Source of the DNA: Dehalobacterium formicoaceticum
Lineage (GTDB): Bacteria; Bacillota; Dehalobacteriia; Dehalobacteriales; Dehalobacteriaceae
Length of the DNA stretch: 64,000 nt
Direction of reading: 5' to 3'
NCBI RefSeq assembly: GCF_002224645.1
Contig: NZ_CP022121.1
Span: 2,424,501 to 2,488,500 of the forward strand
This document shows, piece after piece, positions 7,512 to 64,000 of this stretch (positions within the stretch are counted from its first letter, which is position 1; each line of letters begins with the position of its first letter). Under the pieces are notes generated by a model that did not search any database, was not told the DNA's origin, and was given only the letters and a program-made list of their open reading frames with translations. A program made the translations under genes and the position numbers.

Positions 7512-8366
7512 ATGAAGTACATTGAATTACGCAGCCAGGAAAGAAAATGGAGCGTAGCGGCATTATGTCGGGTACTTCAGGTAAGCGAATCCGGCTATTA
7601 TAAATACCTTAGAAATAAAAGTAAACCCTACAAATATGCTGATCTATTAAAACAGATTTATGATCTCTTGAAAGAAGATCCGGAAAACGCAAATTATGGA
7701 GTTAAAAGAATATATCAATACCTAATGAATAATAAAAATTATGAAGGTAGCTATAGCACTATATACAGAATATGTAAAGAAAACAATCTAATGATCCATT
7801 GTAAAAGAAGGCCAAAAGGAATAACGAAAGCCGATTCTGAGGCACAAAAAGCAGAGAACCTCATAAACCAGGATTTTACAGCACAAAATCCCAATGAAAA
7901 ATGGTTAATGGATATTACCGAAATACCTTGTAAAAACGGGAAGCTCTATCTTGCGCCAGTACTTGACTGCTACGACGGCAGCATACGTGGTTTTAAAATG
8001 GATACTAATATGAAAGCCGAACTTTGCGTAGAGGCCTTTAAACATGCCTGTCGCAATGATGGGGCCAGGGGAAGCCAATTTACCAGCGGTATCTTCAGAA
8101 ACACCTTAACTCAATATGGGGCAATACAAAGCATGAGCAGTGTCGGCCGTTGTTATGACAATGCTAGAATGGAGAGCTTTTTTGCCACCCTAAAAAAAGA
8201 AAAACTATATCAGATGGATACTACAAAAATGACTACAGCAGAGGTTAAAACAGTAATATACAGGTATATTTGTTACTATAATTTAAGGCGTATTTATAGT
8301 ACGAACAATGGATGGCCCCCAATGATATTTAGGGGAATGTATTACCAAAATCAAATAGCAGCCTAA
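7512..8366 (+). CDS. IS3-family OrfB transposase with internal catalytic deletion
   Basis: 284 residues. N-terminal HTH_21 region (SVAALCRVLQVSESGYYKYL), then an rve integrase core with the first Asp in WLMDITEIPCKNGKLYLAPV and the Glu in NARMESFFATLKKEKLYQ. The second catalytic block of this family (a HSDRGSQYTS-type motif) is here reduced to CRNDGARGSQFTSG. By comparison with the family, about eight residues including the catalytic Asp are missing, consistent with an in-frame deletion between two Arg-Gly codon pairs. The frame is otherwise intact. Confidence 0.88.
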   Translation: MKYIELRSQERKWSVAALCRVLQVSESGYYKYLRNKSKPYKYADLLKQIYDLLKEDPENANYGVKRIYQYLMNNKNYEGSYSTIYRICKENNLMIHCKRRPKGITKADSEAQKAENLINQDFTAQNPNEKWLMDITEIPCKNGKLYLAPVLDCYDGSIRGFKMDTNMKAELCVEAFKHACRNDGARGSQFTSGIFRNTLTQYGAIQSMSSVGRCYDNARMESFFATLKKEKLYQMDTTKMTTAEVKTVIYRYICYYNLRRIYSTNNGWPPMIFRGMYYQNQIAA

Positions 8367-8400
8367 ATTGACTTTTTAAAATATAGTCCGATTGTTTTAT

Positions 8401-8588
8401 GAAACCCCGGTGGCCTTGACATCCACCCCACGCGTGTCGTTATTAAATTACCGACGGGCGGCTCCGAGAAACATAATGTTTCATATAAGCCCGTCTAAAA
8501 ACTATTTTAACACGCTTGGGGACCCCGTCTGTAAAGGCTCCCCTTCGGCACCTAAGTAGCCCAAGTGGTAATTATCTCTGGGCTCACC
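8401..8588 (-). ncRNA. Candidate structured non-coding RNA (possibly raiA-motif-like)
   Basis: Read on the minus strand the segment is GC-rich compared with its surroundings and folds into nested helices. AGCCCA/TGGGCT forms near the 5-prime end. CCCCAaGCGTGT pairs with ACACGCgTGGGG across about 80 nt. Inside lies GACGGGC/GCCCGTC, capped by a GAAACATTATGTTTC hairpin. GGTGG/CCACC forms at the 3-prime end. Several stems are perfect and the segment has no reading frame. It resembles my memory of the raiA-motif RNA of Firmicutes, but I cannot verify this. The IS3 element lies just beyond its 3-prime end. The rest of the gap to 8733 shows nothing else. Confidence 0.5.
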
Positions 8589-8733
8589 AAAAAACATTAA
8601 TAGTTTTCATTAATTCTTAAACATGTTTTCAATGGTGGTGCTATTTTAGAAAGAGTAAATTTCCATTTTCAATTAAACTAATATTTTATCCTTGCGCTTT
8701 TTTACTGAACCAATATTGACAAATCCAAAGAGT

Positions 8734-9465
8734 TTAAAAATTCAAAGGAAGAAAAGTAACCATGTGTTCCCAAGCAGTTTTTAGATCATAGTACTTTAAT
8801 ACTCCTGCTGTGATTTTTTGAGCGATAAGATCTAAGTACTGAGGGTCTTCTAATTTTTTTTGTTCTCTAGGATTACTTAGGTAACCGATTTCTACCAGTA
8901 CAGCAGGAATTTTAGTATTACACAGCATAAAACATTTACTGTTTTTTGACAGCCTTTTTCTAATTTCGGGAACAGTTCTGAGTTCTTCCTGAATGTAATT
9001 AGCTAGCATTTTACCATTTAATGATTTCGGATGGTAAAATGCTTCTGCGCCTTCATAGGCGTTTTTATTGTTGCTGTTAACATGGACGGTCAATAGTATT
9101 TCCGCATTGCTGGAATTTATTATTTTGATTCTTTCTGTTAGGTCATAGCGTTTTGCTTCTTTTCCATGCAGACCTTTTATTGCATGGTTATAATCACCAT
9201 TACGGGTTAGTACTACCAAAAATCCTTTGTTTTCAAGATGTTCTTTTAATTTTTTACAAATTATTAGATTGATATCTTTTTCCAGAACATTGCCGGAAAC
9301 TGCTCCTGGGTCATAACCTCCATGCCCCGGATCTATGGCAATAATAGGGGAACCCGGTGCTTGAGCAATAATGCCATAATTGCCATAACCCGGGGAAGCT
9401 ATTGCTATTTGGGATAAAATAACAAGGAAGAACATTACTGTAGTGAGAATAAATCTTTTATGCAT
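8734..9465 (-). CDS. N-acetylmuramoyl-L-alanine amidase, CwlD-like
   Basis: 243 residues with a signal peptide (about 1-24). The Amidase_3 domain has zinc ligands in IIAIDPGHGGYDPGA, the Glu of EKDINL and the His of LLTVHVNSN, and the catalytic Glu in AVLVEIGYLSNPREQ. It cleaves the amide bond between MurNAc and the stem peptide. The size and short signal-plus-catalytic layout match CwlD, which makes muramic delta-lactam in spore cortex, suggesting a spore-former; housekeeping amidases of similar size exist. It is 34 bp downstream of the deacetylase gene on the same strand, so they are probably cotranscribed. Confidence 0.9.
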   Translation of the reverse strand: MHKRFILTTVMFFLVILSQIAIASPGYGNYGIIAQAPGSPIIAIDPGHGGYDPGAVSGNVLEKDINLIICKKLKEHLENKGFLVVLTRNGDYNHAIKGLHGKEAKRYDLTERIKIINSSNAEILLTVHVNSNNKNAYEGAEAFYHPKSLNGKMLANYIQEELRTVPEIRKRLSKNSKCFMLCNTKIPAVLVEIGYLSNPREQKKLEDPQYLDLIAQKITAGVLKYYDLKTAWEHMVTFLPLNF

Positions 9466-18373: not shown

Positions 18374-19684
18374 ATGGCAAAAGCAATATTATATATCAAC
18401 CAGTTTTTTGGCCAGATCGGCGGGGAAGACAAAGCTGATATTGCGCCTATGATCCAGGAAGGCTTGGTTGGACCGGCCAACGAGCTTGTAAAACATTTGG
18501 ACGCAGATGTTACCCATACGATCATCTGCGGTGATAACTATATGGGGTCCAATACCGAAGATGCGGTTAATACCATCTTAGAGTTTCTTAAGGACAAGGA
18601 AATGGATATCTTTTTAGCCGGTCCTGCTTTTCAGGCCGGAAGATATGGCAGCGCTTGCGGTCACATCTGTAAAGCCGTAAAAGAAAAATTTAACATCCCG
18701 GTGGTCACATCGATGCACGAAGAGAACCCTGGGGTAGAGATGTTCCAGAAGGATATGTATATCATGAGGGGCGGCAAGAGTGCCGCCAAAATGAGAGAAG
18801 ACATCAAAAATATGGCCCGCCTTGGCAACAAACTCTTAAAAGGCGAGGCTATTCTGGAAGCTGCCCTGGAAGGATATTATCCCAGAGGCATCAGACACCA
18901 AGTGTGGCTGGATGACAAAAAACCGGCTGCCGACAGAGTTGTAGAAATGCTGATCAAAAAATTGAATGGCGAACCCTATGAAACGGAATTACCGATTCCT
19001 AAAATGGATCGGGTACCGATTGCTCCTCCTATCGCAGATTTAAGTAAAGCTAATATTGCCCTGATCACAAGCGGCGGTATTGTTCCCGTGGACAATCCGG
19101 ACAGAATCCAATCAGCCTCTGCTACCAGGTGGGGCCGATACAACATTGAAGGCTTGGATGATCTAAAGAGCGGCGTATACAAAACTGTTCATGCCGGATT
19201 TGACCCGGCTGCAGCAGATGCAGATCCGGATGTAATTACTCCGGTAGATGCTCTGAGGGCTTATGAAAAGGAAGGAAAGATCGGTAAGCTGCATAATTTC
19301 TTCTATTCCACGGTAGGTACCGGCACAACACAGGCAGAAGCAGCAAGAATGGCCCAAGAGATGATACCCTATCTAAGAGAAGATCATGTGGACGGTATTA
19401 TTCTCACCTCCACCTGAGGCACCTGTACACGTTGCGGTGCAACGATGGTAAAAGAGTTAGAACGGGCAGGATTCCCTGTGGTCCAAATGGCTAATTTGAT
19501 TCCGGTGGCGACAACTGTAGGTTCCAACAGAATAGTACCCACCATTTCCATCCCCTATCCTTTGGGCGACCCGGGGACAGATAAAAAGGAACAATGGAAA
19601 CTTCGTTATCACCGGGTAGGCGTTGCCCTGGATTCATTAACGCAAGATGTACAAGAACAAACTGTGTTCAAAGTTAAAATATAA
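18374..19684 (+). CDS. Glycine/sarcosine/betaine reductase protein B, selenoprotein subunit (GrdB/GrdF/GrdH family)
   Basis: 436 residues when the in-frame TGA at 19415-19417 is read as selenocysteine (U348). The sequence around it is ILTST-U-GTCTRCGATMVKEL, the family active site, and the frame continues to 19684. Both halves match the family and the length is as expected. The selenocysteine attacks the substrate bound as a Schiff base on the pyruvoyl subunit and passes a carboxymethyl group to GrdA. GGAGG lies upstream. A SECIS-like hairpin follows the UGA. Automatic annotation would wrongly split this gene at 19417. Confidence 0.95.
19418..19443 (+). promoter_or_regulatory. Bacterial SECIS-like hairpin
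   Basis: GCACC (19419) pairs with GGTGC (19436-19440) just downstream of the UGA codon, at the position needed for SelB-directed selenocysteine insertion. Confidence 0.7.
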
Positions 19685-48682: not shown

Positions 48683-48791
48683 GAATAAGTAAGATCAAAT
48701 GTAAGCAATAAGGCCGGGAACAGGCACTTTTCTGATTTTCACTTTAGGGAAAACCGAATTTCATTACTAATTTAGAAGGGAATTGATCCCA

Positions 48792-49484
48792 ATGTCAGAT
48801 CATAAAAAAGAACCCAGAATCAAAATCACGCATAATGGACCTTATCTTGTATCAGGTAAGGTACCACTATACGAAAAAATCATTGTACCAGTAGGAAAGC
48901 ATTATGTGCTCCAAGATGGACGTGAACTGCCCCAATCTGATGTATATGCACTTTGCCGCTGCGGCAAATCAAAAAACACTCCATTTTGTGATGGAAGCCA
49001 TGAGAAGGTCGGTTTTGTGGGCGAAGAAACTGCTTCAAAAACAAAATATGAAGACAGAGCCGATTATATGGAAGGACCTGGTATTGACTTATTAGATGAT
49101 CATAGGTGTGCTCTTGCCCGTTTTTGCCATCAAGAAAAAGGAGATGCCTGGGAATTAACGGCAAGATCCGATCAAGATGACTGTAAAAAGGAAGCAATTC
49201 AGGCAGCATGTGAGTGCCCGTCCGGACGACTGACAGCTGTTGAAAAGACCGGGGCAAGAATTGAACCCACATATGAACCATCAATTGAGATCATTCAGGA
49301 CCCGGAAAAGGGTGTTAGTGCAGGTATTTTTGTTAAGGGAAATATTCCTATCGAATCATCAGATGGCGAAACATATGAAATCAGAAATAGGGTTGCTCTG
49401 TGTCGGTGCGGTAGGTCAGGAAATAAGCCATTTTGTGATGTGTCACATGTATCTGGGAGATTTAAAGATAAAGACAAAGAATGA
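48792..49484 (+). CDS. Iron-sulfur protein with two CDGSH domains
   Basis: 230 residues from the ATG at 48792 (AGAAGGGA upstream). Two CDGSH-type 2Fe-2S motifs: CRCGKSKNTPFCDGSH near residues 55-72 and CRCGRSGNKPFCDVSH near the C-terminus. They flank a middle region with an additional Cys cluster (CALARFC, CECP) resembling a Fer4_19/DUF1271-type domain. Probably a redox or iron-sulfur-handling protein; no partner is evident. A decayed partial copy of its 5-prime end lies at 51100-51258. Confidence 0.92.
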   Translation: MSDHKKEPRIKITHNGPYLVSGKVPLYEKIIVPVGKHYVLQDGRELPQSDVYALCRCGKSKNTPFCDGSHEKVGFVGEETASKTKYEDRADYMEGPGIDLLDDHRCALARFCHQEKGDAWELTARSDQDDCKKEAIQAACECPSGRLTAVEKTGARIEPTYEPSIEIIQDPEKGVSAGIFVKGNIPIESSDGETYEIRNRVALCRCGRSGNKPFCDVSHVSGRFKDKDKE

Positions 49485-51099: not shown

Positions 51100-51258
51100 A
51101 AAATGGATTGATCCATGTAAGATCATAAAAAATAAGCCAAAATTAAAAATCACGTACAATGGACTATATCATGTATCAGGTAGGGTACAACTATATGAAA
51201 AAATCATTATACCGGTAGGAAGGCATTATTAAATCCAAGATGGACGTGAGCTGCCTCG
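51100..51258 (+). pseudogene. Decayed duplicate of the CDGSH gene 5-prime end
   Basis: Aligns with 48778-48930 over about 150 bp: shared blocks GATCATAAAAAA, AAAATCACG, TGTATCAGGTA, GAAAAAATCATT and CCAAGATGGACGTGA. The start is followed at once by a stop (ATGTAA) and more stops occur, so it is dead. The gap 50999-51452 otherwise holds only AT-rich sequence and the promoter region of the next gene. Confidence 0.88.
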
Positions 51259-51452: not shown

Positions 51453-53921
51453 ATGAAAAAGATCATGCTCATTGCTATGATTTGGTTGTTGGTGACTACT
51501 ACTGGTCCAGCATTGGCGGTAAATATTAATGAATATAATCAAGACCTGGAATTAAACACATTTCAAGACAGCATTATTATGTCGTTAAACACGGATAAAG
51601 CTTTTGTTAATGGGAGAGAGATGTCGGGTAAAAAACCAATTCTGGAGAATGGCAGAACCATGGTGCCTCTGCGCTTTCTGGCAGAAAATTTGCAGGCAAA
51701 AGTAGACTGGCATCCAACAAAAAAAGAAGTGCAGATCAATGATGGGAAGAAAAAAATATTATTAACCATCGGTAGTAAAGATATGTTGGTGAATGGGGCG
51801 AAAATCAAAATTGACGATCCGGCAATACTCAGAAATGGAACTACATATTTGTCGTTTCAGACTATAGGGGATGCTTTGGGAAAAACGACAGAGTTCAAAA
51901 ATGACGGCAAATTAATCATGGTCAGCAATCAACCAATGGATTTGAATCTGACCGCTCTGAATACCTTAAAGGCATCATTTGACGAAAATTATCAAGTGCT
52001 TTATGGTGATACCTGGGTGATAATTGCTGAAAAAAACAATCGATTATATGGCTGGGATCTGAATAACCGTAATGATTTTACGGACTTGGGTGACAATTTC
52101 ACTAATGAACGGCTGAAGGAAGGGAAAGAACTTTATTTATCATTTCATATTGGGGACAGTACCATGGGTTCAGACCAAATATTTGCCATCTATCCCGATA
52201 AAGAAGTGAAGTTTATTTACTCTACTGATCTATTGGGGATGAAAGAAAAAGACGGCTGGTTATATATGCTGGTTGAAAATAACTTTTGGGCCATGATGCT
52301 CGATTCCATTGAATTGAGGAAAAAGTTCAGCGGAAATCTAATCAGATTAAATATTGCTGAAGCCATCACTTACCATGAAACAGCAAATAATGATGTTCCT
52401 TTTCAAGCGCAACAATTAGGTGAACCAGGCTATTTTTATGGCATACATCCAATTGTCGGCGATTATTATGGGAGAATAATTGTTCGTGAATTGAAAAGGG
52501 ATCGCAACAGTTATATGTTTGACTGGGCAATAAAAGATGACGCGATTTACGCCATTGGAGTTGATTTTACTTCCGATCAAGCAGATAAAACCGTTGCTCA
52601 ATATAAAATACCTTTTACCGGCAGAAGTCATGAAAAAATCCCAGCGACAGATGATGCGCCGGAACAATTAAGTGAAATTTTGGCCCGAGGACTGGCCGAT
52701 ACAGACATCGATTTAAAAGATATTGAAAATGGGATCCTCATTGAGCATAGCTCTTTCGACCTGAATCAAGACGGCAGGTCAGACGAAATGTATATGATTG
52801 CCAGCTCAATGAGTATCGATAATTATTTTACTGCCCCGGCATATTTTATTTACATCACTTCTCCTGACGATAAGTTTCGCATTATTCAACTGGATTTTCC
52901 TCCTATTGACTTAACGGAGGGAAACATCAATATTCAGTATGGCGATATCAGCGGAGATAAAATCCCGGAAATCTTTTATTCTGTGGATTATCCTCAACCG
53001 GAGCATGTGGAAAGATCGCCTCATATGCTGCAATATTCCCCCGAAACCGGAAAATTCTCGGACCTGGATATTGCAGGGGAAAATGATTTTCTCATCCGGG
53101 ATTGGGGCATTGAAAAGAATAGTGAAAATAATAATGAAGAAGCGGAATTGTGGCTGGATCTTAAAAAGAACATCCATGATGACCAGGGTATACGCCATTA
53201 CTTTCGCCTGTATCAAGATAGGTTGATAAAGCGGGAGAATTATGACAGAATAACCAATCCGGATATCAGCCATGAACAAGATCGGGAGGCAGTATTTGCC
53301 GATAGCAATTTGGAAAATATCGTGCGCAAGGAAATTGATAAATATGAGGGTCCAATTTATCAAAGTGAGTTAAAAGGGATTACCCGTTTATGGGCCGGGG
53401 GGAAAATGATATCCAACCTGAAAGGAATTGAATATTTGGCTGATGTTGAGGAGGTGGATTTCTCCGGAAACATAATCGAGGATTTACACCCGGTTGAGAA
53501 GCTGGTTAATTTAAAAGAAGCTGATTTTTCCGCAAACAAGATCCGTGATTTCAGCCCTCTCAACAAGCTAAATGCGCTGACGACATTGGATCTGTCATTT
53601 TGTGATATATCGGATCTTCAATCCCTTGGTGAAATGCCCAACCTGAAATCCCTTGATTTGGACTATAACAAGATTACTGATTTACGTCCGCTGGCAAAGC
53701 TGAAGGGATTACAGAATCTTTATTTATATAGCAACCAGATTAAAAGTATTGATCCGCTGGCCGCATTAACCAATTTGGAGAACCTGTCACTGCAGGAAAA
53801 TCAAATTAAGGATGTTAGTCCGTTAAAAGACTTGACTTCTTTACAATCCTTGGGACTAACAGGAAATCCGATCAGCAATCTTGATGTATTGTCAACTTTG
53901 GAAGATACGTTTATTTATTGA
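51453..53921 (+). CDS. Surface protein with copper amine oxidase N-like domain and C-terminal leucine-rich repeats
   Basis: 822 residues, ATG after GGAGGCGG. Signal peptide 1-22 (LIAMIWLLVTTTGPALA). A copper-amine-oxidase-N-like domain follows at about 45-170 (RTMVPLRFLAENLQAKVDWH, GTTYLSFQTIGDALGKTTEF), then a long middle region resembling a beta-propeller or repeat domain with Asp-rich turns. The last 150 residues are internalin-type LRRs of 22 residues (LVNLKEADFSANKIRDFSPL, LKGLQNLYLYSNQIKSIDPL). Probably cell-surface adhesion or sensing. No sortase or SLH motif seen. Confidence 0.9.
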   Translation: MKKIMLIAMIWLLVTTTGPALAVNINEYNQDLELNTFQDSIIMSLNTDKAFVNGREMSGKKPILENGRTMVPLRFLAENLQAKVDWHPTKKEVQINDGKKKILLTIGSKDMLVNGAKIKIDDPAILRNGTTYLSFQTIGDALGKTTEFKNDGKLIMVSNQPMDLNLTALNTLKASFDENYQVLYGDTWVIIAEKNNRLYGWDLNNRNDFTDLGDNFTNERLKEGKELYLSFHIGDSTMGSDQIFAIYPDKEVKFIYSTDLLGMKEKDGWLYMLVENNFWAMMLDSIELRKKFSGNLIRLNIAEAITYHETANNDVPFQAQQLGEPGYFYGIHPIVGDYYGRIIVRELKRDRNSYMFDWAIKDDAIYAIGVDFTSDQADKTVAQYKIPFTGRSHEKIPATDDAPEQLSEILARGLADTDIDLKDIENGILIEHSSFDLNQDGRSDEMYMIASSMSIDNYFTAPAYFIYITSPDDKFRIIQLDFPPIDLTEGNINIQYGDISGDKIPEIFYSVDYPQPEHVERSPHMLQYSPETGKFSDLDIAGENDFLIRDWGIEKNSENNNEEAELWLDLKKNIHDDQGIRHYFRLYQDRLIKRENYDRITNPDISHEQDREAVFADSNLENIVRKEIDKYEGPIYQSELKGITRLWAGGKMISNLKGIEYLADVEEVDFSGNIIEDLHPVEKLVNLKEADFSANKIRDFSPLNKLNALTTLDLSFCDISDLQSLGEMPNLKSLDLDYNKITDLRPLAKLKGLQNLYLYSNQIKSIDPLAALTNLENLSLQENQIKDVSPLKDLTSLQSLGLTGNPISNLDVLSTLEDTFIY

Positions 53922-54164: not shown

Positions 54165-54209
54165 GCAAAAAGCTGCATCAAGCAAATATTAAAACGTATT
54201 TCAATACAT
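54165..54209 (-). ncRNA. Candidate crRNA-like guide RNA (degenerate repeat plus guide) targeting the cas6 leader
   Basis: On the minus strand 54209-54198 reads ATGTATTGAAAT, identical to the last 12 bases of the CRISPR repeat including the 8-nt handle. The next bases, from 54197 downwards, are ACGTTTTAATATTTGCT then TGAT. These match the minus strand at 54366-54346 (cas6 5-prime UTR) at 18 of 21 positions, with mismatches at 6, 8 and 18. The target is preceded by TCA (54369-54367). A weak second repeat-like block (AACC, then CACATT and ATG spaced as in the repeat) begins about 29 bases into the guide. It probably guides Cascade to repress the cas operon, as known for CreR/CreA-type RNAs. Transcription is not shown by sequence. 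Confidence 0.6.
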
Positions 54210-54227
54210 TTGTTTGTTTCATTTTAT

Positions 54228-54255
54228 AGTATATCCTAAAATATTAGTTTATCAA
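54228..54255 (-). promoter_or_regulatory. Minus-strand promoter of the crRNA-like RNA
   Basis: TTGATA (54255-54250) and TATACT (54233-54228) with a 16-bp spacer; the predicted start near 54221 lies about 12 nt before the repeat fragment. It is divergent from the cas promoter. Confidence 0.65.
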
Positions 54256-54297
54256 CAAAAATATAAAACTAGTAAATTTCATAAATCTCTGAAAAGA

Positions 54298-54326
54298 TTG
54301 ACATTCCGCAGAGAATGATATATTAT
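54298..54326 (+). promoter_or_regulatory. cas operon promoter
   Basis: TTGACA (54298) and TATTAT (54321) with a 17-bp spacer. Transcription would start near 54333, so the guide target (54346-54366) lies in the early 5-prime UTR. Confidence 0.75.
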
Positions 54327-54390
54327 GAATTAACAAACCATTATTATCTAGCAAATATAATAACGTTGAGATTGAAAGGTGGTGAAAAAG

Positions 54391-55086
54391 TTGAACCATT
54401 ATCATGAAATCGTATTTACAATTCAATTTTTAAAGGATGTCACATTTGACGAGGTGCAATCGGGGATTGCGGAACTCATAAACCGAAGCATGCTGCTGGA
54501 TGAGGAACTAAAAAATTTCCATCATCAAAGAGGGTATAAACTATACTGTTTTTCCGCTCCGTATCCTTTGGAGCAAGATAAGATTTATCGGGAAGGTCGA
54601 ATGTACTGTTTTAATCTGCGCACAATGCATTTAAACTTTGCTTTAAAGATTAAGCAATATTTATCGAAGACTCATGGGATTGCTAAGGTCATTTCAAGTG
54701 ACTTAAAAAACTATTCTTTTAAGCACATTAATGAATTAATAACCCTAACACCTATCGTATGCACTTTGAACAATAGATGTTGGTTACATAATGATGGAAT
54801 CGCACTTCTATCAGAAAGACTGCATCTAAACGCATATAAGAAATGCAAAAGCCTAGACGATTCATTTGAAGAAACGGCAGAATTCTTTTTTGACAGAATA
54901 GAAATTCTTAACAAAGTCGCAATTAAAATCAAGTACAAAGGTAAGAATACTATATTGCTCGGACACAAAATTAAGCTATCTGTAAAACCTCAACCATGGG
55001 CTCAGCAGATGGCCAATATCGTGCTGGCATCCGGTGCTTTGGAAAAAAATAGTCTGGGATTAGGATACTGTTTGGCCAGGAGGTGA
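54391..55086 (+). CDS. cas6: CRISPR repeat endonuclease Cas6
   Basis: 231 residues from TTG at 54391 (AAAGGTGG eight bases upstream; GTG at 54379 or 54382 are alternatives). The Cas6 RAMP fold is indicated by the C-terminal glycine-rich loop GALEKNSLGLGYCLA. It cuts the precursor CRISPR RNA within each repeat, leaving the 8-nt handle ATTGAAAT on each crRNA. First gene of the cas operon. A His or Tyr catalytic residue cannot be assigned from sequence alone. Confidence 0.92.
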   Translation: MNHYHEIVFTIQFLKDVTFDEVQSGIAELINRSMLLDEELKNFHHQRGYKLYCFSAPYPLEQDKIYREGRMYCFNLRTMHLNFALKIKQYLSKTHGIAKVISSDLKNYSFKHINELITLTPIVCTLNNRCWLHNDGIALLSERLHLNAYKKCKSLDDSFEETAEFFFDRIEILNKVAIKIKYKGKNTILLGHKIKLSVKPQPWAQQMANIVLASGALEKNSLGLGYCLARR

Positions 55087-55090
55087 AAGG

Positions 55091-56887
55091 ATGTTTAAGG
55101 AACTGCTCCAGGAGTTTATGAATCACCAGGTGCAAGATACTAAATTTGATGTGGACACGATTGTGATCCAGAATTATAAACTTAAACCAGGACTATATTT
55201 CCGCATAAGGGAAAATAATGAGACAGATTGCTATTTTGTCAAAAAGTCAACAGCACCTGACAATGACCCATTAGTGGAATGGTTTAAAGAAGCTGATTTT
55301 GCGAGTACCTTGATAGAAATGAATAAACCAATTGACCCCAAAAAACAAATCCATAGTAACAATATTTATACCTTGTTTTGTAAACACGATGTTTTTATAG
55401 GTGAGCGCGGTATTAACCCAGATTTAATGGAGCATATTGATCGTTATTTTGATGCTTTACCAAAGATCAAGGATAAAAAAAGTGAAGAAATTCTTGCAAC
55501 TGCCGGATATCAGCCTTTAAATACGGAAACTGTCGAAGAATGTAAAACGAAATTTTTGAATGTTTTAGATGCTATTAAAGACATGATTATCCAATACGAT
55601 ATTAAAGATAATAGCTATGTAAAGCTGTTCCTGGATGTGTCCCTTGAAAAATATCAATATGAAAGCGGCCGCTATTTATTGCCGCGCATATTCAACAGTA
55701 ACAATTATAACATTATGATGGATGAACAGGTAATTGGTCTTTCTAATGCAAATATGGGTATGAATGCTAAAAAACCTTATCTGGAGCATAAAACAACACA
55801 ATTTAAAGTTCCCTACCGAATTACTGCGGAGGATGGAGTTCTACTACATAAGTTCTTCTTGTGGCTGAATGGACTGGAACTAGAAGGAAAAACCCTTTAT
55901 ACCGGTTACATCCCTGTGGGAGTTCATTTGCCGGGACTATTTGCCGTAGCCAAGGATATAAAAGTTCGGAGTTCGGCCATGTATGTCAACCTGGATCGTG
56001 GCATCAATGTGACCATCGATGACTATGACTTTTTACCAAGATTTAATAACAGCATGGACAAACCCATTCGCTTTAAAGATTATTTTGAATCATCAAATTA
56101 CCCCAGTCAAAAATTGAACAAGTTAAACGAAGTGGAGACTCATATCAATTTATACCTATATGGCGGACATTTGATACGAAACTATTATACCGAAAGAGTA
56201 AAGGTTACGGATAATTTGTCACGAGAACTAGCCGTGCAAATTGTAACGTCACGGGATGCAATGCATGATTGGTTGAGGAAAGGAAATGAAGTACCGATTA
56301 GAAGTTGTGTGGACAAGGTTTCGATGGGCGTGCTCTTGGCTCGGTTACAGAACCTTGAATATGTATCTGCTTTAGCCCAAATGCTAAATGTAAGGCTGGC
56401 ACTTTTAAACTATTTTAACAAGGAGGAAAATGATATGGGTTATGTCATGGAAGAGACATATCTAAGTTTAAAGGACAAGGTGCTTAGCAAAAACAAAAAT
56501 GAGCATATTGCTTGCCAAAATTCTCTGGAATTTTATATAGCGGCAGGCCAGATTCTCTATTACTATTTCAGTTTAAGTGAAGCTCAGAAGATGCACTATG
56601 ATGTCTTTTTGAGGGGGATTGTTTCGGCTAAGAACATTCAAACTATTAAAGATGAACATTATAAATATCTTCATAAATATTCTTATGCTATCGACTATAA
56701 TAATCAGCGTTTTAATAACATGTTAAGCATTGTGACTTCTTACGCCCCCGAAAATGAAGAATCAATTGACCGTGATGCACTGTTATACGGATTTGCAGCT
56801 AATAATATTATTTACTTTAAAGATGATGATAAGAGTAAACAGGATAATAATGAAGTAAAACCGGATGAAAATGAAGGGGGTAAATGA
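55091..56887 (+). CDS. cas8b: Type I-B Cascade large subunit Cas8b
   Basis: 598 residues, four bases after the cas6 stop, with GGAGG in the cas6 end. It is the long, poorly conserved protein between cas6 and cas7, where subtype I-B has Cas8b (Csh1/TM1802 family). Such subunits recognise the PAM and recruit Cas3. The last residues are acidic and Lys-rich (DDDKSKQDNNEVKPDENEGG). The call rests on position, length and overall character rather than on a catalytic motif. Confidence 0.85.
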   Translation: MFKELLQEFMNHQVQDTKFDVDTIVIQNYKLKPGLYFRIRENNETDCYFVKKSTAPDNDPLVEWFKEADFASTLIEMNKPIDPKKQIHSNNIYTLFCKHDVFIGERGINPDLMEHIDRYFDALPKIKDKKSEEILATAGYQPLNTETVEECKTKFLNVLDAIKDMIIQYDIKDNSYVKLFLDVSLEKYQYESGRYLLPRIFNSNNYNIMMDEQVIGLSNANMGMNAKKPYLEHKTTQFKVPYRITAEDGVLLHKFFLWLNGLELEGKTLYTGYIPVGVHLPGLFAVAKDIKVRSSAMYVNLDRGINVTIDDYDFLPRFNNSMDKPIRFKDYFESSNYPSQKLNKLNEVETHINLYLYGGHLIRNYYTERVKVTDNLSRELAVQIVTSRDAMHDWLRKGNEVPIRSCVDKVSMGVLLARLQNLEYVSALAQMLNVRLALLNYFNKEENDMGYVMEETYLSLKDKVLSKNKNEHIACQNSLEFYIAAGQILYYYFSLSEAQKMHYDVFLRGIVSAKNIQTIKDEHYKYLHKYSYAIDYNNQRFNNMLSIVTSYAPENEESIDRDALLYGFAANNIIYFKDDDKSKQDNNEVKPDENEGGK

Positions 56888-56888
56888 A

Positions 56889-57818
56889 ATGAAGAAAAAC
56901 AATAGAGTATACGGTATTCTCGCCGTTGGAGCTTATATGGCAAATTTTAATGCGGATTTGTCAGGGTATCCCAAAACCACCGCGGATAATATTATTTTAG
57001 GCAGTGACAAAGCTTTAAAGTATCCTATGAAGCGGATGTGGATGATTCAAGGGGAACCGGTGCTATATATCAAGAGCATGCAAATTAAGGAAGATAAAGG
57101 AGGAGAAAAGCTACAGCCCCGAGATCTTAATGAAAGATATTCCTTCCTTTTCGGTAGTTTAGATGAAAAGACTTCTTCAAAGGAAGTCTTAGGAAAACTT
57201 TTTTCAGCCATTGATGTCATGAATTTTGGTGCTACCTTTGCTGAAAAAAAACAAAACATCAGTATTACAGGGGCAGTGCAGATTAATCAGGGGTTAAATC
57301 TCTACAAGGATACAGAGATACTTGTTCAAGATATTCTCTCACCTTTTCGCAATTCTAATGAGAAGAGTGAAGACAAGCTGGCCTCTTCCATGGGGACAAA
57401 AATTGTCACAGACGAAGCTCATTATGTTTACTCATTCTCGGTTAATCCGGCGAATTATCACGACTATATTGGATTAGCTAATGGCTTTGAAGGGTACACG
57501 CAGGAAGCTTATGACAAGTTCAAATGTGCAGCTCGAGTAGCAACGACTGCCTTTAATACCAACTCCAAAAGCGGTTGCGAAAATGAACTGGCCGTCTTTA
57601 TTGAATTAAAAGAAGAAAGCCAATTATTCTTAGCCAATTTGGATCGTTATGTCAGTGCGCAAAGGGATGGGGATCATATCCTTTATGATCTTTCAAAATT
57701 GGCCCAAGCTCTGGAGCCGCACTATGATCAGATTCAATCTGTGGAGATTTATTGCAATCTCGCGACAATCAAGGTAAATTGTGGTTCGCTGCCCGGCAAA
57801 GTAGAATCTATATATTAA
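56889..57818 (+). CDS. cas7: Type I-B Cascade backbone subunit Cas7 (Csh2 type)
   Basis: 309 residues from the ATG at 56889 (GGGGG upstream; the frame extends 24 bases further). N-terminus NNRVYGILAVGAYMANFNAD LSG and the middle motifs MNFGATFAEKKQNISITGAV-QINQGLN are the Csh2/Cas7 RRM-core pattern. Several copies coat the crRNA spacer and flip out every sixth base of the guide. The start is one base after the cas8b stop. Confidence 0.93.
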   Translation: MKKNNRVYGILAVGAYMANFNADLSGYPKTTADNIILGSDKALKYPMKRMWMIQGEPVLYIKSMQIKEDKGGEKLQPRDLNERYSFLFGSLDEKTSSKEVLGKLFSAIDVMNFGATFAEKKQNISITGAVQINQGLNLYKDTEILVQDILSPFRNSNEKSEDKLASSMGTKIVTDEAHYVYSFSVNPANYHDYIGLANGFEGYTQEAYDKFKCAARVATTAFNTNSKSGCENELAVFIELKEESQLFLANLDRYVSAQRDGDHILYDLSKLAQALEPHYDQIQSVEIYCNLATIKVNCGSLPGKVESIY

Positions 57819-57830
57819 GAGGTGGTGTTG

Positions 57831-58571
57831 ATGAAAAGCATCCGATTTACTCTGTCGGGGAAGGCCGCTTGCTTTCGCCAACCCGATGTAAACGCCCAGG
57901 TTTATTTTACCTATAATAATATTCATAAGGTCGCCTTATTAGGGCTGCTCGGGGCAATTCTGGGGTTAAGCGGATACCGAAATTACAAGCTATACGACCA
58001 GAAGGAACCAGATTACCCGGAATTTTATCAAGTGCTGTCGAGTCTGTATGTAGCAATTATCCCCAATGGGGAAAATGGCTATTTCACAAAGAAAATTCAG
58101 TATTTTAATAATAGCGTCGGATATGCCTCGAAAGAACAAGGCGGGAATCTTCAGGTGCGGGAACAATGGCTGGAACATCCCAGCTGGACGATCTTCCTTG
58201 CCCAGAATAACTTGCCGGATGGGACATGGGACAAGCTTTGTCACAGTTTACTCCATGGACAATGTATTTATATTCCTTATCTTGGGCGTAATGATTTTCC
58301 TGCTCAGATAGATGCGGTGAGTATGGTGGAACTAACTCCTACCCGTGCATCTCGAATTGATTCCTTGTTTAGATTCGACGGCGACCTTAGAGCATTGGAT
58401 GGAGGAGGACCATCCCAATATCTATTTGTAGAAAATGCCCCTCTAGCTTTAGTCCGGAAACATAACTTTTATGAATTTGCTCGTTTTATTTACACAAATG
58501 GCAATATTCCCATAGGATACCTGCCCGACCATTTATATACAGATGGTCAACGGCAATATTATTTCTATTAA
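57831..58571 (+). CDS. cas5: Type I-B Cascade subunit Cas5
   Basis: 246 residues from the ATG at 57831 (GAGGTGG upstream). N-terminal RAMP strand SIRFTLSGKAACFRQPDVNA followed by KVALLGLLGAILGLSGY, the typical Cas5 opening. It caps the 5-prime handle of the crRNA. 13 bp after cas7. Confidence 0.92.
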   Translation: MKSIRFTLSGKAACFRQPDVNAQVYFTYNNIHKVALLGLLGAILGLSGYRNYKLYDQKEPDYPEFYQVLSSLYVAIIPNGENGYFTKKIQYFNNSVGYASKEQGGNLQVREQWLEHPSWTIFLAQNNLPDGTWDKLCHSLLHGQCIYIPYLGRNDFPAQIDAVSMVELTPTRASRIDSLFRFDGDLRALDGGGPSQYLFVENAPLALVRKHNFYEFARFIYTNGNIPIGYLPDHLYTDGQRQYYFY

Positions 58572-58638
58572 GCACGATGTACAATGGGGTGGAAAGTAGG
58601 GAAAATGGCTTTCTATCCCATTGACAGGGGGTGACATT

Positions 58639-61023
58639 GTGAAAACTGTCGAATTATTAACTCCTGAAGCCATAAAAGATACGCGCTATCTCGCCCATAC
58701 CAGGATTGTTGGTGAAAGGAAAGAAACCGAAACCCTTCTGGCACATTCTGATCTAACTCTGCATTACCTTGCTATCTATTGTGATCAGAAGGGAATTGAG
58801 AACATTACAAAAGACTTGATCAAATGTTGTGGATTTTCTGATGAAGAAGGCGAAAAGGTTTATCAATTATTTTGCTATGCCATCTATTTACATGATTTTG
58901 GAAAGATCAACCCGCGTTATCAGTATCAGGTTTTAGAAAATAAAGATTTCCGGCTTATGATCAGGAAAGCAAACAATTCTCATCATGCTTTAGCTTCAAG
59001 TTATTTGTATATTGATTATATGTATCAAGTTCTATTAAAAAATCCTTCAGAAGCAATGAAGAAATGTCTGAGTGCATTCGCATATTGCATCTATAAACAC
59101 CATGGGGAATTAGGTGATGGAAGTCAGTTTTCTAAGTTGGAGCTTTGGGATGAAGAGTATTTTCAAAGTGTGCTTGATGAAAGTGTTTTTGAAGACATTC
59201 AATATTATATGCAGGAGTCTAAGTCGATTAAAGATCCTGTCAGCTTTTACATTCTTTGTCGATTACTTTACGCATTGATAACGGGCTGTGATTATTGTGC
59301 TACTGAAGAATTTATGACAGGTCAGCCGGTGCAGCCGATGGTGATCCAAAACAGAGGAGAAGACCTAAAGCAAAGCTATGATGAAAGTACCCTGGTCAAT
59401 AGCATCAGGCAGTTCCATAAGGATCCAAAAACTTTCCGAGGAACTCCAATCAATGCTCTGCGCAATGAAATATTTATTGAGTCAGAAGCTAATCTTAAGG
59501 AAAATCCGGAAGCTCATATTTATTATCTGGAGGCACCAACGGGAGCTGGAAAAACGAACATGGCCATCAATCTTAGTTTGCGTGTTCTTGAGATCGATCC
59601 GCAGATTAATAATATTTTCTACATATTCCCTTTTAATACTTTGGTGGAGCAAACAAAAGATACACTGTTGCCTTTTTTCGGAGATCAAATTGCAGTGGTT
59701 AATTCCCTTACTCCCGTTGTTATGGGTGGAGATGGTGAGAAAGACAATTATGAAGCAGCCTGGCTGGATCGCCTTTTTAATAACTATCCGATTGTTTTAA
59801 CTTCACATATCAATTTCTTTAATGCTTTGTTTGGGTGCGGACGGGAACGTTGCTTTCCGCTGCTTAAGCTATGTAATAGTGTAATCATTTTGGACGAAAT
59901 TCAAAGTTACAAGAATAGTATCTGGCGAGAAATCATTACTTTTCTCCAAGGCTACGCCCGGCAGCTAAATATGAAGATCATAATTATGTCGGCCACACTT
60001 CCTCAATTAGACTTGCTGCTTAAGACGGTCGAGGGCAAGTTTGTCTCATTAGTGAAGGATCCACAAAAGTATTATCAGCATCCTCTTTTTAAAGGAAGAG
60101 TTCATTTGGATTTCTCTTTGTTGGAAAAGGGTAAGATTACTATAGAAGAACTTAAAGATGAAGTATTACGGTTTAAAGATAAAAGAGTGTTAGTGGAATT
60201 CATTAAAAAAAAGACAGCCAGGGAATTTTTCGAACTTTGCAAGGAAGAATGTCATGCTGTTTTACTTACAGGTGACGATAATGGGGCAAGAAGAGAACAG
60301 ATCATAAAAAGGATTAATAACGGGGAAAAGATGGTTTTGATTGCAACGCAAGTAATCGAAGCTGGAGTCAACATTGATATGGAAATTGGTTTTAAGGATA
60401 TTTCTCTTCCGGATGCCGAAGAACAATTTTTGGGACGAATCAATCGGTCATGCTTGAACACTAGCGGTGCTGTTGCCTATTTCTTTGATCTTGACAATGA
60501 GGAAGTAATTTATCGGGGAGACGCTCGCTTGCGTTATTCCGTCAGGGATGTTGCTATTCGAAGAAAGGTAGAGGAGAAGCGTTTTGACGAAATTTATGCC
60601 CAGGTTTTTGCTGATTTGATTGCTAAGACCAGTATGGCAAATAAGATGAATTTGGCATACTTAGATAATGATTGTGTTCAGTTAAATTGTAAGCGCATAG
60701 AGGATCAGATGCGTTTAATTGATCAGAGTTATCAATTATTCATTCCATATATTTGGGAAGATTTAAATGGTTATGATGTGTGGGAAGAATATAGAGCTTT
60801 AGGTATGAATCGGGATATGGGATATGCTCAGCGAAAAATTGAATTTTCCAGGTTGGCATTAAAGATGTCTTATTTTACTTTTACCGTATTTCGAAACAAG
60901 ATACCATACGGGGTAGAAGAGTATGGCGGATATTATTTTATTGATGGCGGAGAGCAATTCGTCACAGACGGAGTGTTGGATCGGACGGCATTAGAGGAGT
61001 TTTACGGAGGGATGTTTTTATAA
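58639..61023 (+). CDS. cas3: Cas3 nuclease-helicase
   Basis: 794 residues from the GTG at 58639 (AGGGGGTGA upstream). The N-terminal HD nuclease has H36, H85-D86 (YLHDFGK), H115-H116 and H154-H155 (YKHHGELG) as metal ligands. The C-terminal superfamily 2 helicase follows: Walker A PTGAGKTNMA, Walker B ILDEIQSYKN, SATLPQ and motif VI EQFLGRINRS. It is recruited by target-bound Cascade and degrades the DNA strand. Fully intact HD and helicase motifs suggest active interference. Confidence 0.96.
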   Translation: MKTVELLTPEAIKDTRYLAHTRIVGERKETETLLAHSDLTLHYLAIYCDQKGIENITKDLIKCCGFSDEEGEKVYQLFCYAIYLHDFGKINPRYQYQVLENKDFRLMIRKANNSHHALASSYLYIDYMYQVLLKNPSEAMKKCLSAFAYCIYKHHGELGDGSQFSKLELWDEEYFQSVLDESVFEDIQYYMQESKSIKDPVSFYILCRLLYALITGCDYCATEEFMTGQPVQPMVIQNRGEDLKQSYDESTLVNSIRQFHKDPKTFRGTPINALRNEIFIESEANLKENPEAHIYYLEAPTGAGKTNMAINLSLRVLEIDPQINNIFYIFPFNTLVEQTKDTLLPFFGDQIAVVNSLTPVVMGGDGEKDNYEAAWLDRLFNNYPIVLTSHINFFNALFGCGRERCFPLLKLCNSVIILDEIQSYKNSIWREIITFLQGYARQLNMKIIIMSATLPQLDLLLKTVEGKFVSLVKDPQKYYQHPLFKGRVHLDFSLLEKGKITIEELKDEVLRFKDKRVLVEFIKKKTAREFFELCKEECHAVLLTGDDNGARREQIIKRINNGEKMVLIATQVIEAGVNIDMEIGFKDISLPDAEEQFLGRINRSCLNTSGAVAYFFDLDNEEVIYRGDARLRYSVRDVAIRRKVEEKRFDEIYAQVFADLIAKTSMANKMNLAYLDNDCVQLNCKRIEDQMRLIDQSYQLFIPYIWEDLNGYDVWEEYRALGMNRDMGYAQRKIEFSRLALKMSYFTFTVFRNKIPYGVEEYGGYYFIDGGEQFVTDGVLDRTALEEFYGGMFL

Positions 61024-61509
61024 ATGCTGACAGGAACTATTGTGAATTACTATACACATTGTCAAAGACAGTGCTGGTTATTTTCACATAATCTAAACAT
61101 GGAAGACAATTCGGAGGACGTTAGGATCGGCAAAGTGCTGCATGAACTGAAAAAGCAAGGAACGGAAGAAATCGCATTAGAAGGAATCAAGCTGGATAAG
61201 CTGACGGCGGAGTATGTCACGGAAATCAAAAAATCGGATGCCGATTTAGCTGCGGCGAAAGCCCAGTTGGAATTCTATTTAGTTACTCTGTATGACAAGG
61301 GGATTATACGCAAAGGTTGCTTAGAATGCCTGGAGAAGAATAAGCAAAGTAAAAGTGTCCACACATTAGTGATGTCGGAGGAAGATATCGAAGAACGGAA
61401 AGCTTATTATCGTCAGATCGAGGATTTCCTAGAACAAGAACAACCTCCATCTCCGGTTTTTAAGCCTATTTGCAAGAAATGTGCCTACTATGATTATTGC
61501 TTTATCTAG
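61024..61509 (+). CDS. cas4: Cas4 nuclease
   Basis: 161 residues, ATG directly after the cas3 stop. N-terminal C13 or C17 (HCQRQCW) and C-terminal C150, C153, C159 (ICKKCAYYDYC) form the 4Fe-4S site; the RecB-type catalytic motif includes LDKL and EIKKS. It trims prespacers and ensures a correct PAM during adaptation. Confidence 0.95.
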   Translation: MLTGTIVNYYTHCQRQCWLFSHNLNMEDNSEDVRIGKVLHELKKQGTEEIALEGIKLDKLTAEYVTEIKKSDADLAAAKAQLEFYLVTLYDKGIIRKGCLECLEKNKQSKSVHTLVMSEEDIEERKAYYRQIEDFLEQEQPPSPVFKPICKKCAYYDYCFI

Positions 61510-61527
61510 TTAAGGGAGGGATGAAGA

Positions 61528-62535
61528 ATCAGTAAGAGTAATGAGACGCGTTATATTTTTTCGTCCGGAGAGTTATTTCAAAAGGATTTTTCCATTGTAC
61601 TCCGTAAGGATGAGAAAAATATTTATTTACCAATAAAGGATACACGAGAATTATATTGCTTTAATGATATAACCCTCAGTACGAAAATGCTGCAGTTATT
61701 ATCAAAGGCAGGCATCATCGTTCATTTCTTTGGTTATCATGGAAACTATATCGGAACATTTTATCCGAAGGAGCAATTAATAAGCGGTAGGCTGACTGTC
61801 GCTCAGGCCTTAGCTTATAAAGATAAAAGAATGATGATTGCCGGGGCAATAGTTAAAGGAATTGCCCGTAATATCTATTTTGTGCTTTATCATTATTATC
61901 GTCATGGAAAAAATGAATTTAAGGATTACCTTGATTGGTTACGCAAAGATGTTCCGAATTTGGTTGATAAGACAAATGATATCAATCAACTGCTTCGTGT
62001 AGAAGGGGCGATCTGGGCAAAATTCTACCAAAGTTTCCGAACCATCTTACCGGAATCATTTGCGATGAACAAAAGGGTAAAAAGGCCTCCTGACAATCCC
62101 ATAAATGCTTTGATATCTTTTGGTAATTCCTTACTGTATACGAAGGTGATTACAGAAATCTATCACACCCACCTAGATCAAGCCATATCTTTTTTGCATG
62201 AGCCTGCAGAACGCCGCTTTTCATTAAGCTTAGATTTATCAGAAGTGTTTAAACCGGTGTTGGTTTTTAAGACGATATTCGACTGTGTTAATAATAGGAA
62301 GATTACCGTAGAGAAACATTTTGACAAAAAATTGAATTATGCCTTACTCAATGAAAGCGGGCGTAAAGTCTTTATTGAGGCGTTCGAGGAACGTCTGAAC
62401 CAGGCTTTTGAGCACCAAACTTTAAAAAGAAGGTGCAGCTATAAACATGCTATTAGACTGGATGGATATAAGTTAATTAAATTTATAATGGAGGAGAAAA
62501 GTTTTACCCCTTTTAGTTTGGAGGATAAGAAATGA
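61528..62535 (+). CDS. cas1: Cas1 integrase, apparent AUC start
   Basis: 335 residues if read from ATC at 61528, seven bases after GGGAGGG. The frame upstream of the first ATG (61687) clearly encodes the Cas1 N-terminal domain: NETRYIFSSGELFQKDFSIV, then IYLPIKDTRELYCFNDITL. It contains no ATG, GTG or TTG. Starting at 61687 would delete about 53 residues of the N-terminal beta domain. An out-of-frame ATG at 61521 stops after four codons. Metal-binding residues are in LLRVEGAIWAKFY (Glu), THLDQAISFLHE (His) and SLDLSEVFKP (Asp). Either AUC initiation, a recent start mutation or a one-base frameshift applies. It integrates spacers together with Cas2. Confidence 0.88.
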   Translation: MSKSNETRYIFSSGELFQKDFSIVLRKDEKNIYLPIKDTRELYCFNDITLSTKMLQLLSKAGIIVHFFGYHGNYIGTFYPKEQLISGRLTVAQALAYKDKRMMIAGAIVKGIARNIYFVLYHYYRHGKNEFKDYLDWLRKDVPNLVDKTNDINQLLRVEGAIWAKFYQSFRTILPESFAMNKRVKRPPDNPINALISFGNSLLYTKVITEIYHTHLDQAISFLHEPAERRFSLSLDLSEVFKPVLVFKTIFDCVNNRKITVEKHFDKKLNYALLNESGRKVFIEAFEERLNQAFEHQTLKRRCSYKHAIRLDGYKLIKFIMEEKSFTPFSLEDKK

Positions 62536-62816
62536 AAAATTTCAACTATAACTATGTAATTCTTTTTTATGATGTTGGCGAAAAACGTGTAACGAAGGTA
62601 TTCAAGATATGTAAGCAGTATCTGAAGCATTATCAAAAATCTGTTTTCAGGGGACATATCACTCCTGGAAACTTTTTGGAACTTAAGGGGAAACTCAAAA
62701 AAGTAATTGACCCGGAGTATGATTTTATAACATTTATTCAAACAATGAGTGAGTCATCTTTTCACGAAGAAAGTATGGGTAATACGGGCATTGATCCTGA
62801 GTCATTAATTATTTGA
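62532..62816 (+). CDS. cas2: Cas2
   Basis: 94 residues, overlapping the cas1 stop (ATGA). Ferredoxin-like fold with D14 in NYVILFYDVGEKRVTKVFKI and QYLKHYQKSVFRGHI. It bridges Cas1 dimers in the spacer-integration complex. Confidence 0.95.
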   Translation: MKNFNYNYVILFYDVGEKRVTKVFKICKQYLKHYQKSVFRGHITPGNFLELKGKLKKVIDPEYDFITFIQTMSESSFHEESMGNTGIDPESLII

Positions 62817-62992: not shown

Positions 62993-64000
62993 GCGGAACC
63001 TCCACATTGGATGTATTGAAATTTGAGCAAATCTTCATCGCTTATTTCATCAAACTTAGCGGAACCTCCACATTGGATGTATTGAAATCCAAGAAAGTAA
63101 TAAGCGGCGCGGGAGAGATGCGATAGCGGAACCTCCACATTGGATGTATTGAAATAGGACTTGGCTGAGTTTGAATTACTGGACAGAATAGCGGAACCTC
63201 CACATTGGATGTATTGAAATTTAATTCTAACTGTTATTAGATTTTTTTCTCCTTGCGCGGAACCTCCACATTGGATGTATTGAAATAGCGTTAATTTTAG
63301 CTGGTGTAAGTATTACGTCTGGGCGGAACCTCCACATTGGATGTATTGAAATAAACGACAGAATGATTGATAGACAAATTCGAGGAGTGCGGAACCTCCA
63401 CATTGGATGTATTGAAATTTGTTCTGCCATTGCTCCCGGATGTGGGGATATTTAGCGGAACCTCCACATTGGATGTATTGAAATTAATTTCCATAACCAC
63501 ACCTTCTAAACCATTGATAGCGGAACCTCCACATTGGATGTATTGAAATATCTCAAACTCATTTTCATTGTTCTGCCATTGCTCCGCGGAACCTCCACAT
63601 TGGATGTATTGAAATATAAACTTGTCCGCTTTCTCGGAAAAAATAAATGCAGCGGAACCTCCACATTGGATGTATTGAAATTGTTCCCTGCAAATCTGAT
63701 TTACTTTAAGCAAGTATTGCGGAACCTCCACATTGGATGTATTGAAATTAAAAGAATCCTGTTCCTCCGTATTCGACAGTGCTAGCGGAACCTCCACATT
63801 GGATGTATTGAAATTAGTTTGCATTATGCAGGTAATACACGCTGTAAAAGGCGGAACCTCCACATTGGATGTATTGAAATAAGCTAATAAACCAAATCTA
63901 TTTATTTGTCTAAACGCGGAACCTCCACATTGGATGTATTGAAATAAGTTAATAGAAATGTATATGTCTTTAAAAGGAAAAGCGGAACCTCCACATTGGA
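62993..64000 (+). CRISPR. CRISPR array, 15 complete repeats plus one cut by the window edge
   Basis: 30-bp repeats beginning GCGGAACCTCC and ending GTATTGAAAT, all identical, starting at 62993, 63059, 63126, 63191, 63257, 63323, 63389, 63455, 63520, 63586, 63652, 63719, 63785, 63851, 63916 and 63982 (partial). 15 spacers of 35-37 bp. The ATTGAAAT end gives the crRNA handle, so the array is transcribed on the plus strand away from cas2. Spacers 7 (63419-63454) and 9 (63550-63585) overlap by 18 bases of the same protospacer region. Reverse complements of several spacers are open reading frames, as expected for phage or plasmid genes. The protein-like frames on the minus strand here are repeat artefacts. 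Confidence 0.99.

Follow-up and report, generated by a model that had tools for sequence, protein, structure and literature searches.

The DNA upstream of the type I-B cas6 gene of Dehalobacterium formicoaceticum very probably encodes a crRNA-like RNA for cas autorepression (CreR), by which Cascade would be directed to the leader of its own operon. CreR is already known as a Cas-regulating crRNA-like RNA of type I and V-A systems (PMC12737573, PMC12948488). The variant found here, in anaerobic Bacillota, has its repeats arranged in a way for which we found no description in the open literature, including reviews of CreR. The gene, creR, lies in a window of 64,000 nucleotides, this being the whole stretch of DNA that was analysed. 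The features of the locus are as follows (coordinates are those of the window):

54233-54056, minus strand: creR, crRNA-like gene, divergent from the type I-B cas6 operon
54255-54228, minus strand: predicted creR promoter, -35 box TTGATA (54255-54250), 16 nt, -10 box TATACT (54233-54228), 10/12 consensus positions
54225-54212, minus strand: 5' strand of a predicted long-range stem, AAAATGAAACAAAC, beginning at about 54221 if the predicted start is correct
54209-54198, minus strand: repeat 1, 3' half only, ATGT and the 8-nt handle (ATTGAAAT), 12/12 relative to the array repeat
54197-54169, minus strand: guide (psi-spacer) of 29 nt, with 18 of its first 21 nt matching the cas6 leader
54168-54139, minus strand: repeat 2, degenerate, TTGCAACCCTCACATTTCATGTTTATCAAT, 19/30 relative to the array repeat
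54134-54124, minus strand: third repeat fragment, 5'-half-like, AACC-ACT-GCAT, the proposed missing half of repeat 1
54120-54107, minus strand: 3' strand of the predicted long-range stem, GTTTGTTTCATTTT, pairing with 54225-54212
54099-54056, minus strand: intrinsic terminator of the creR transcript, 19 pairs and a T tract (1 found, 0.1 expected)
54298-54326, plus strand: cas operon promoter, TTGACA-17-TATTAT, 11/12 consensus positions
54346-54366, plus strand: guide target in the cas6 5' leader, located between the ribosome-binding site (54375-54382) and the predicted start, close to the latter
54367-54369, minus strand: PAM TCA, reading TGA on the plus strand
54379-55086, plus strand: cas6 (TIGR01877, E 3e-12, under the curated cut-off of the family)
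55091-62816, plus strand: rest of the type I-B operon, i.e., large subunit, cas7, cas5 (Cas5b), cas3, cas4, cas1 (Cas1b), and cas2
62993-64000, plus strand: CRISPR array, with 30-nt repeats ending in ATTGAAAT

A crRNA-like gene divergent from cas6

A preliminary description of this region had pointed to a piece of the CRISPR repeat behind a promoter of its own. Both elements were recovered: ATGTATTGAAAT, on the minus strand at 54209-54198, is identical to the final 12 nt of the array repeat (GCGGAACCTCCACATTGGATGTATTGAAAT, 133 forward copies in the genome), and the TTGATA-16-TATACT promoter precedes it. The position of this promoter predicts a transcription start near 54221, and relatives have similar -10 motifs at the same position. 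The creR promoter and that of the cas operon, expected to start near 54333, are the two top promoter-like sites of the region. The true start of cas6 is probably the TTG at 54391. The large subunit, in the position of cas8, had no family match.

The repeat piece had been described as lying alone. It is indeed the only copy of ATGTATTGAAAT outside the array in the window (four copies are found outside array context genome-wide), but it is followed 29 nt later by the degenerate repeat 2, then by the third fragment and a strong terminator. Repeat 2 matches the array repeat at 19 of 30 positions, while the next-best place on that strand, repeat 1 itself aside, reaches 14/30. It keeps the 5' part of a repeat, with the AACC..ACAT-TTC-ATGT hairpin, and has lost the handle; its AACCNNNACAYNNNRTGT is retained in relatives. 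The handle is kept by repeat 1, a sharing of roles known from two-repeat creA genes (PMC8501985). The presence of this second repeat makes creR a standard two-repeat crRNA-like RNA, of the CreA/CreR design, instead of a lone handle. Its repeats are degenerate and its psi-spacer has 29 nt, against 34-38 in the array, which places it outside the definition of an ordinary mini-CRISPR array. We also considered whether repeat 2 and the third fragment might enclose a second guide, and rejected this because repeat 2 has lost its handle. The comparison of creR with Rfam gave no match to a known RNA.

The match between guide and leader is as initially reported, with 54197-54177 fitting 54366-54346 at 18 of 21 positions, mismatches at 6, 8, and 18, and TCA 5' of the protospacer. 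The target also lies just after the predicted cas start, as had been proposed. The target site, TCAACGTTNTNATATTTGCT, occurs exactly once in the 3.77-Mb genome, in the cas6 leader, and none of 2,000 shuffled leaders matched the guide as well as the real one. In the creR locus the guide is preceded by AAT instead of TCA, so the creR gene is not its own target.

A few observations concern the surroundings of these genes. Directly downstream of creR and convergent with it, the window encodes an 822-aa protein with an internalin-like leucine-rich C-terminus (51453-53921), and the two genes probably have a common terminator. A 128-nt direct repeat (48804-48931 and 51128-51255, 82% identity) duplicates a piece of the gene at 48783-49484 (cysteine-rich, CDGSH-like by eye), and the duplicate sits just before the leucine-rich-repeat gene. 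The 133-repeat array is broken by about 2.7 kb between copies (G000:C1:2491399-2494112, outside the window), possibly by an insertion.

Guides and targets covary across relatives

Relatives were found via Cas6 and via a pattern combining the handle and repeat 2. Contig searches with a single Cas6 protein returned no loci and those with a Cas6 alignment returned 10. The creR layout upstream of cas6 is also present in 8 genomes: Desulforamulus aeronauticus, two Syntrophomonas, a Pelotomaculum MAG, Peptococcaceae CEB3, and three others designated G486, G251, and G424. The systems of G251 and G424 are the distant ones among the carriers. The pattern matched 4 of 398 phylum-wide genomes, each time at one of these creR loci beside cas6, and pattern searches in two further classes gave no more members. 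In D. aeronauticus, two arrays with unlike repeat 5' parts (7881-8966 and 18615-19277 of locus L020) flank one cas operon, and the creR handle fits the repeats of both. The guides and targets are:

Window: guide ACGTTTTAATATTTGCT, target ACGTTATTATATTTGCT
D. aeronauticus: guide TTGTTTATATATG, target the same 13
Syntrophomonas: guide ATGATTATTAGACAGT, target ATGATTATTAG[T or G]CAGT
Pelotomaculum MAG: guide ATGTTTTTTGTTCT, target ATGTTATTTGTTCT
CEB3: guide ATAATTTTTATAATGCG, target ATAATATTTATAATGCG
G486: guide ATGTTTTATTACTATTAA, target ATGTTATATTATTATTAA
G251: guide ACTCTTTAGTTTGA, target ACTCTATAGTTACA
G424: guide TATATTTCTTTTCAATA, target TATATATCTTTACAATA

Guides and targets differ between lineages and match within each. 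Among six loci compared, each guide fits its own leader best and cross-species pairs are at background, except for the two Syntrophomonas. These two genomes have one common guide, and the nine loci thus represent eight independent guides. When all 17 positions were weighted equally, the best site of the leader was the proposed target in all nine loci, and under this unbiased scoring TCA was found 5' of the best site in 9/9.

Every sixth base is flipped out in type I-B Cascade (PMC11096372). The preliminary description had argued that, of the window's mismatches, only the one at position 8 should matter, and this fits the other loci, where mismatches sit at 6 and 12. Within guide positions 1-13 (those beyond were excluded), 10 of the 12 mismatches fall at 6 or 12, six at the former and four at the latter (binomial 3.6e-7, assuming that all positions are equally likely). 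The target base opposite position 12 differs between the two Syntrophomonas species. The target of G424 lies on the opposite, coding strand, with mismatches at 6, 12, and 18 and no match from 19 on, and the PAM of G251 shares bases with the -35 box TTGACA. Hence, the geometry relative to the promoter varies and the logic is kept.

The identification of TCA as the PAM comes solely from the creR target sites. Searches of phages with the spacers gave one weak cross-host match and none for Syntrophomonas. The match, between a spacer of locus L052 (1803-1838) and a Paenibacillus phage gene annotated as chromosome segregation protein SMC / RecF-like, has 91% identity over 34 nt and a TAA flank. A single match of this kind makes the spacer targets uninformative on the PAM.

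It had been suggested that the proposal be checked by covariation, and handle, guide, PAM, and target do covary in every close relative with a readable upstream region, except one. The exception, which counts against the proposal, is a Desulfotomaculum MAG (L019) with a closely related cas6: its guide gene is absent, its upstream region looks rearranged, and no consensus cas promoter like those of the other loci was found within about 550 nt upstream. Overall, the comparisons support the initial reading of this RNA as an autorepression guide.

A possible split repeat and a long-range stem

The repeats of this clade carry a hairpin, ACAT-NNN-ATGT, directly before the handle (ACAA-ACG-TTGT in G251, changed on both sides). 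In all six lineages with an ATTGAAAY handle, i.e., the window and five others, repeat 1 of creR consists of the 3' half only, and the 5' half of the hairpin is not adjacent to ATGT. All six have an AACC-N2-4-RCAY fragment after repeat 2 (chance 0.3-6% each), and the stretch that follows it is complementary to the bases immediately 5' of the ATGT of repeat 1. In the window the two arms (AAAATGAAACAAAC and GTTTGTTTCATTTT) make a 14-nt perfect inverted repeat with a duplex of -18.1 kcal/mol (P 4e-4). The arms are GGTAGGTTGAA and TTCAACCTACC in CEB3, and CCGCAACA and TGTTGCGG in Syntrophomonas. The arms vary from lineage to lineage while the parts derived from repeats are conserved, which led us to reject a mobile element with 14-bp terminal inverted repeats (54225-54107).

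Compared with dinucleotide shuffles, the stem duplexes have P values of 2e-4 to 0.03 per lineage (Fisher 2.7e-11 over the six). The individual values are optimistic, since the stem was noticed by eye before the shuffle tests, and the stems of G486 and the window, being similar, are not fully independent. Replication across lineages is the stronger argument. In a cross matrix of the arms the own pair is strongest, and folding gives pairing probabilities near 1 for most of the outer stem in 6/6 lineages. At their inner end, the best duplexes join AUGU (GUGU in Pelotomaculum) with RCAU (or ACAC). At the level of sequence comparison, a covarying long-range stem is well supported. The AACC..RCAY fragment is absent from G251 and G424. 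Repeat 1 of G424 is contiguous with its own hairpin intact, and its repeat 2 has a compensated ACAC..GTGT. The test revealed no stem in G251 (P 0.36) and some pairing in G424 (P 0.008), which is unexplained.

With slightly better than even confidence, we read repeat 1 as a split, circularly permuted CRISPR repeat, with AUGU and the handle at the opening of the RNA, AACC-N2-4-ACAU at its close, and a long stem, specific to each lineage, in place of the hairpin loop. The two halves, at the two ends of the RNA, would thereby be joined into a rebuilt site that Cas6 may use and still cut. This amends the proposal that the 5' end of the RNA is set by its own promoter: the promoter precedes the handle as described, but it need not set the end alone, because a piece resembling the missing half of repeat 1 lies at the 3' end of the RNA.

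Proposed mechanism and alternative explanations

The creR promoter, divergent to cas6, would drive a transcript of about 165 nt. Two processing events would then leave a crRNA-like RNA of about 59 nt: Cas6 would cut after the AUGU of repeat 2 and, at repeat 1, generate the 8-nt handle AUUGAAAU. Type I-B Cascade carrying this RNA would recognise TCA and about 17-21 nt of the cas6 leader, occupy the first tens of transcribed cas bases (54346-54366, for a start near 54333), and block transcription. The match, of at most about 21 nt, is short and imperfect, and should therefore not lead to lasting attack by Cas3. In the type I-B system of P. thermoglucosidasius, guides with up to 26 nt of complementarity bring about repression but neither interference nor cleavage (PMC10551041). 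A seed match alone suffices for repression by the CreA of H. hispanica, where every seed base at 1-5 and 7-11 mattered (PMC8501985). The guide of the window carries one true seed mismatch, at position 8, which counts against the autorepression reading. Repression would be lifted when ordinary crRNAs or anti-CRISPRs occupy Cascade, as titration by either releases CreR repression (PMC12737573).

The guide RNA could be real and its long stem serve only as a protective clamp sealing the ends. In that case the start site, or a different RNase, would define the 5' end of the guide, and the AACC fragment would be left over from a mini-array that had two spacers. We regard this as plausible, if rather less probable than a split repeat. 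It is in line with the predicted start of the window, at the base of the stem, and with the inner ATGU:GCAU pairs, which are weakly predicted there (p about 0.07), although forcing them costs only about 3 kcal/mol. The downstream flank of the AACC fragment also still resembles a whole shrunken repeat in some lineages. Yet all six lineages have the fragment at the inner end of the stem, with an AACC-to-stem spacing of 2-4 nt as compared to 3 in a normal repeat, and several relatives have their predicted start about 20 nt or more upstream of the handle, implying that the RNA is processed. The full split-repeat structure, when forced, lies 0-4 kcal/mol above the best fold.

Other explanations concern the function of the guide itself. 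The two-psiR architecture is common to CreA and CreR (PMC8501985, PMC12737573), and the RNA might be the CreA of a CreTA addiction module that represses a toxin RNA besides or instead of cas. However, every lineage has a conserved target between the guide and cas6, no toxin gene was seen in that interval, and the genome has the target pattern only once, which makes this very unlikely. We give an equally low probability to a guide that sends Cascade and Cas3 to the cas locus for nicking or priming, which would promote spacer acquisition or array turnover and not repression. Short guides are still able to prime adaptation in one type I-B system (PMC10551041), but self-priming of the chromosome would be costly, and in most lineages the targets are at or just after the cas promoters, as repression predicts. 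As for chance similarity, the region is AT-rich and the genome has 3 further handle-like 12-mers outside array context. Covariation excludes it nonetheless: eight independent guides have matching targets, with the same PAM and the same mismatch positions.

Comparison with known systems

The creR gene shares several features with CreR. Both have a degenerate mini-CRISPR adjoining cas genes (here psiR1 at 12/12 and psiR2 at 19/30, conserved in relatives), a guide that partly matches the cas promoter or leader next to a PAM (18/21 and TCA), and no toxin partner, there being no gene between the guide and cas6, although a tiny RNA toxin elsewhere may have escaped notice. The variant differs in having repeat 1 apparently split across the ends of the RNA and closed by the covarying stem, and in that most targets are at or just after the predicted start.

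The two-psiR CreA of haloarchaeal CreTA (PMC8501985, PMC9458426) has the same psiR1-psiS-psiR2 order, a psiR1 that keeps the handle, a psiR2 that keeps the 3' handle, and a seed match that ignores the flipped-out base 6. It is processed to 8-nt and 22-nt handles (PMC8501985). The sequences that Cas6 would need to make the 8-nt handle at psiR1 and the 22-nt 3' handle at psiR2 are present in creR, whose psiR2 has kept the hairpin and lost the handle. In contrast with CreA, creR has no toxin and its target is the cas6 leader; the psiR1 of CreA is contiguous and its repeats lack a conserved hairpin, whereas those studied here have ACAT-NNN-ATGT. The one-psiR CreA of Haloarcula hispanica also has a guide whose 5' handle comes from a degenerate repeat, and differs by the presence of psiR2 in creR. 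In the autorepression of Cas9 by tracr-L, the effector is likewise guided to its own promoter by a short match, but this system is type II and its RNA is derived from the tracrRNA and not from a repeat.

Implications

We found no description of split, permuted, or long-range paired CRISPR repeats in the open literature. If the split repeat is true, it is a new way of encoding a guide RNA, with the guide freed from a looped precursor and two repeats too unlike to recombine or to grow as an array. It would also explain why such genes escape array finders, and single-guide repression tools might adopt it as a recombination-proof format. Its processing would reveal what Cas6 requires of a repeat. 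More broadly, the comparison of these loci points to a type I-B Cascade turned on its own operon in anaerobic Bacillota, with independent guide-target pairs that evolve together and tolerated mismatches that trace the six-base geometry of the effector.
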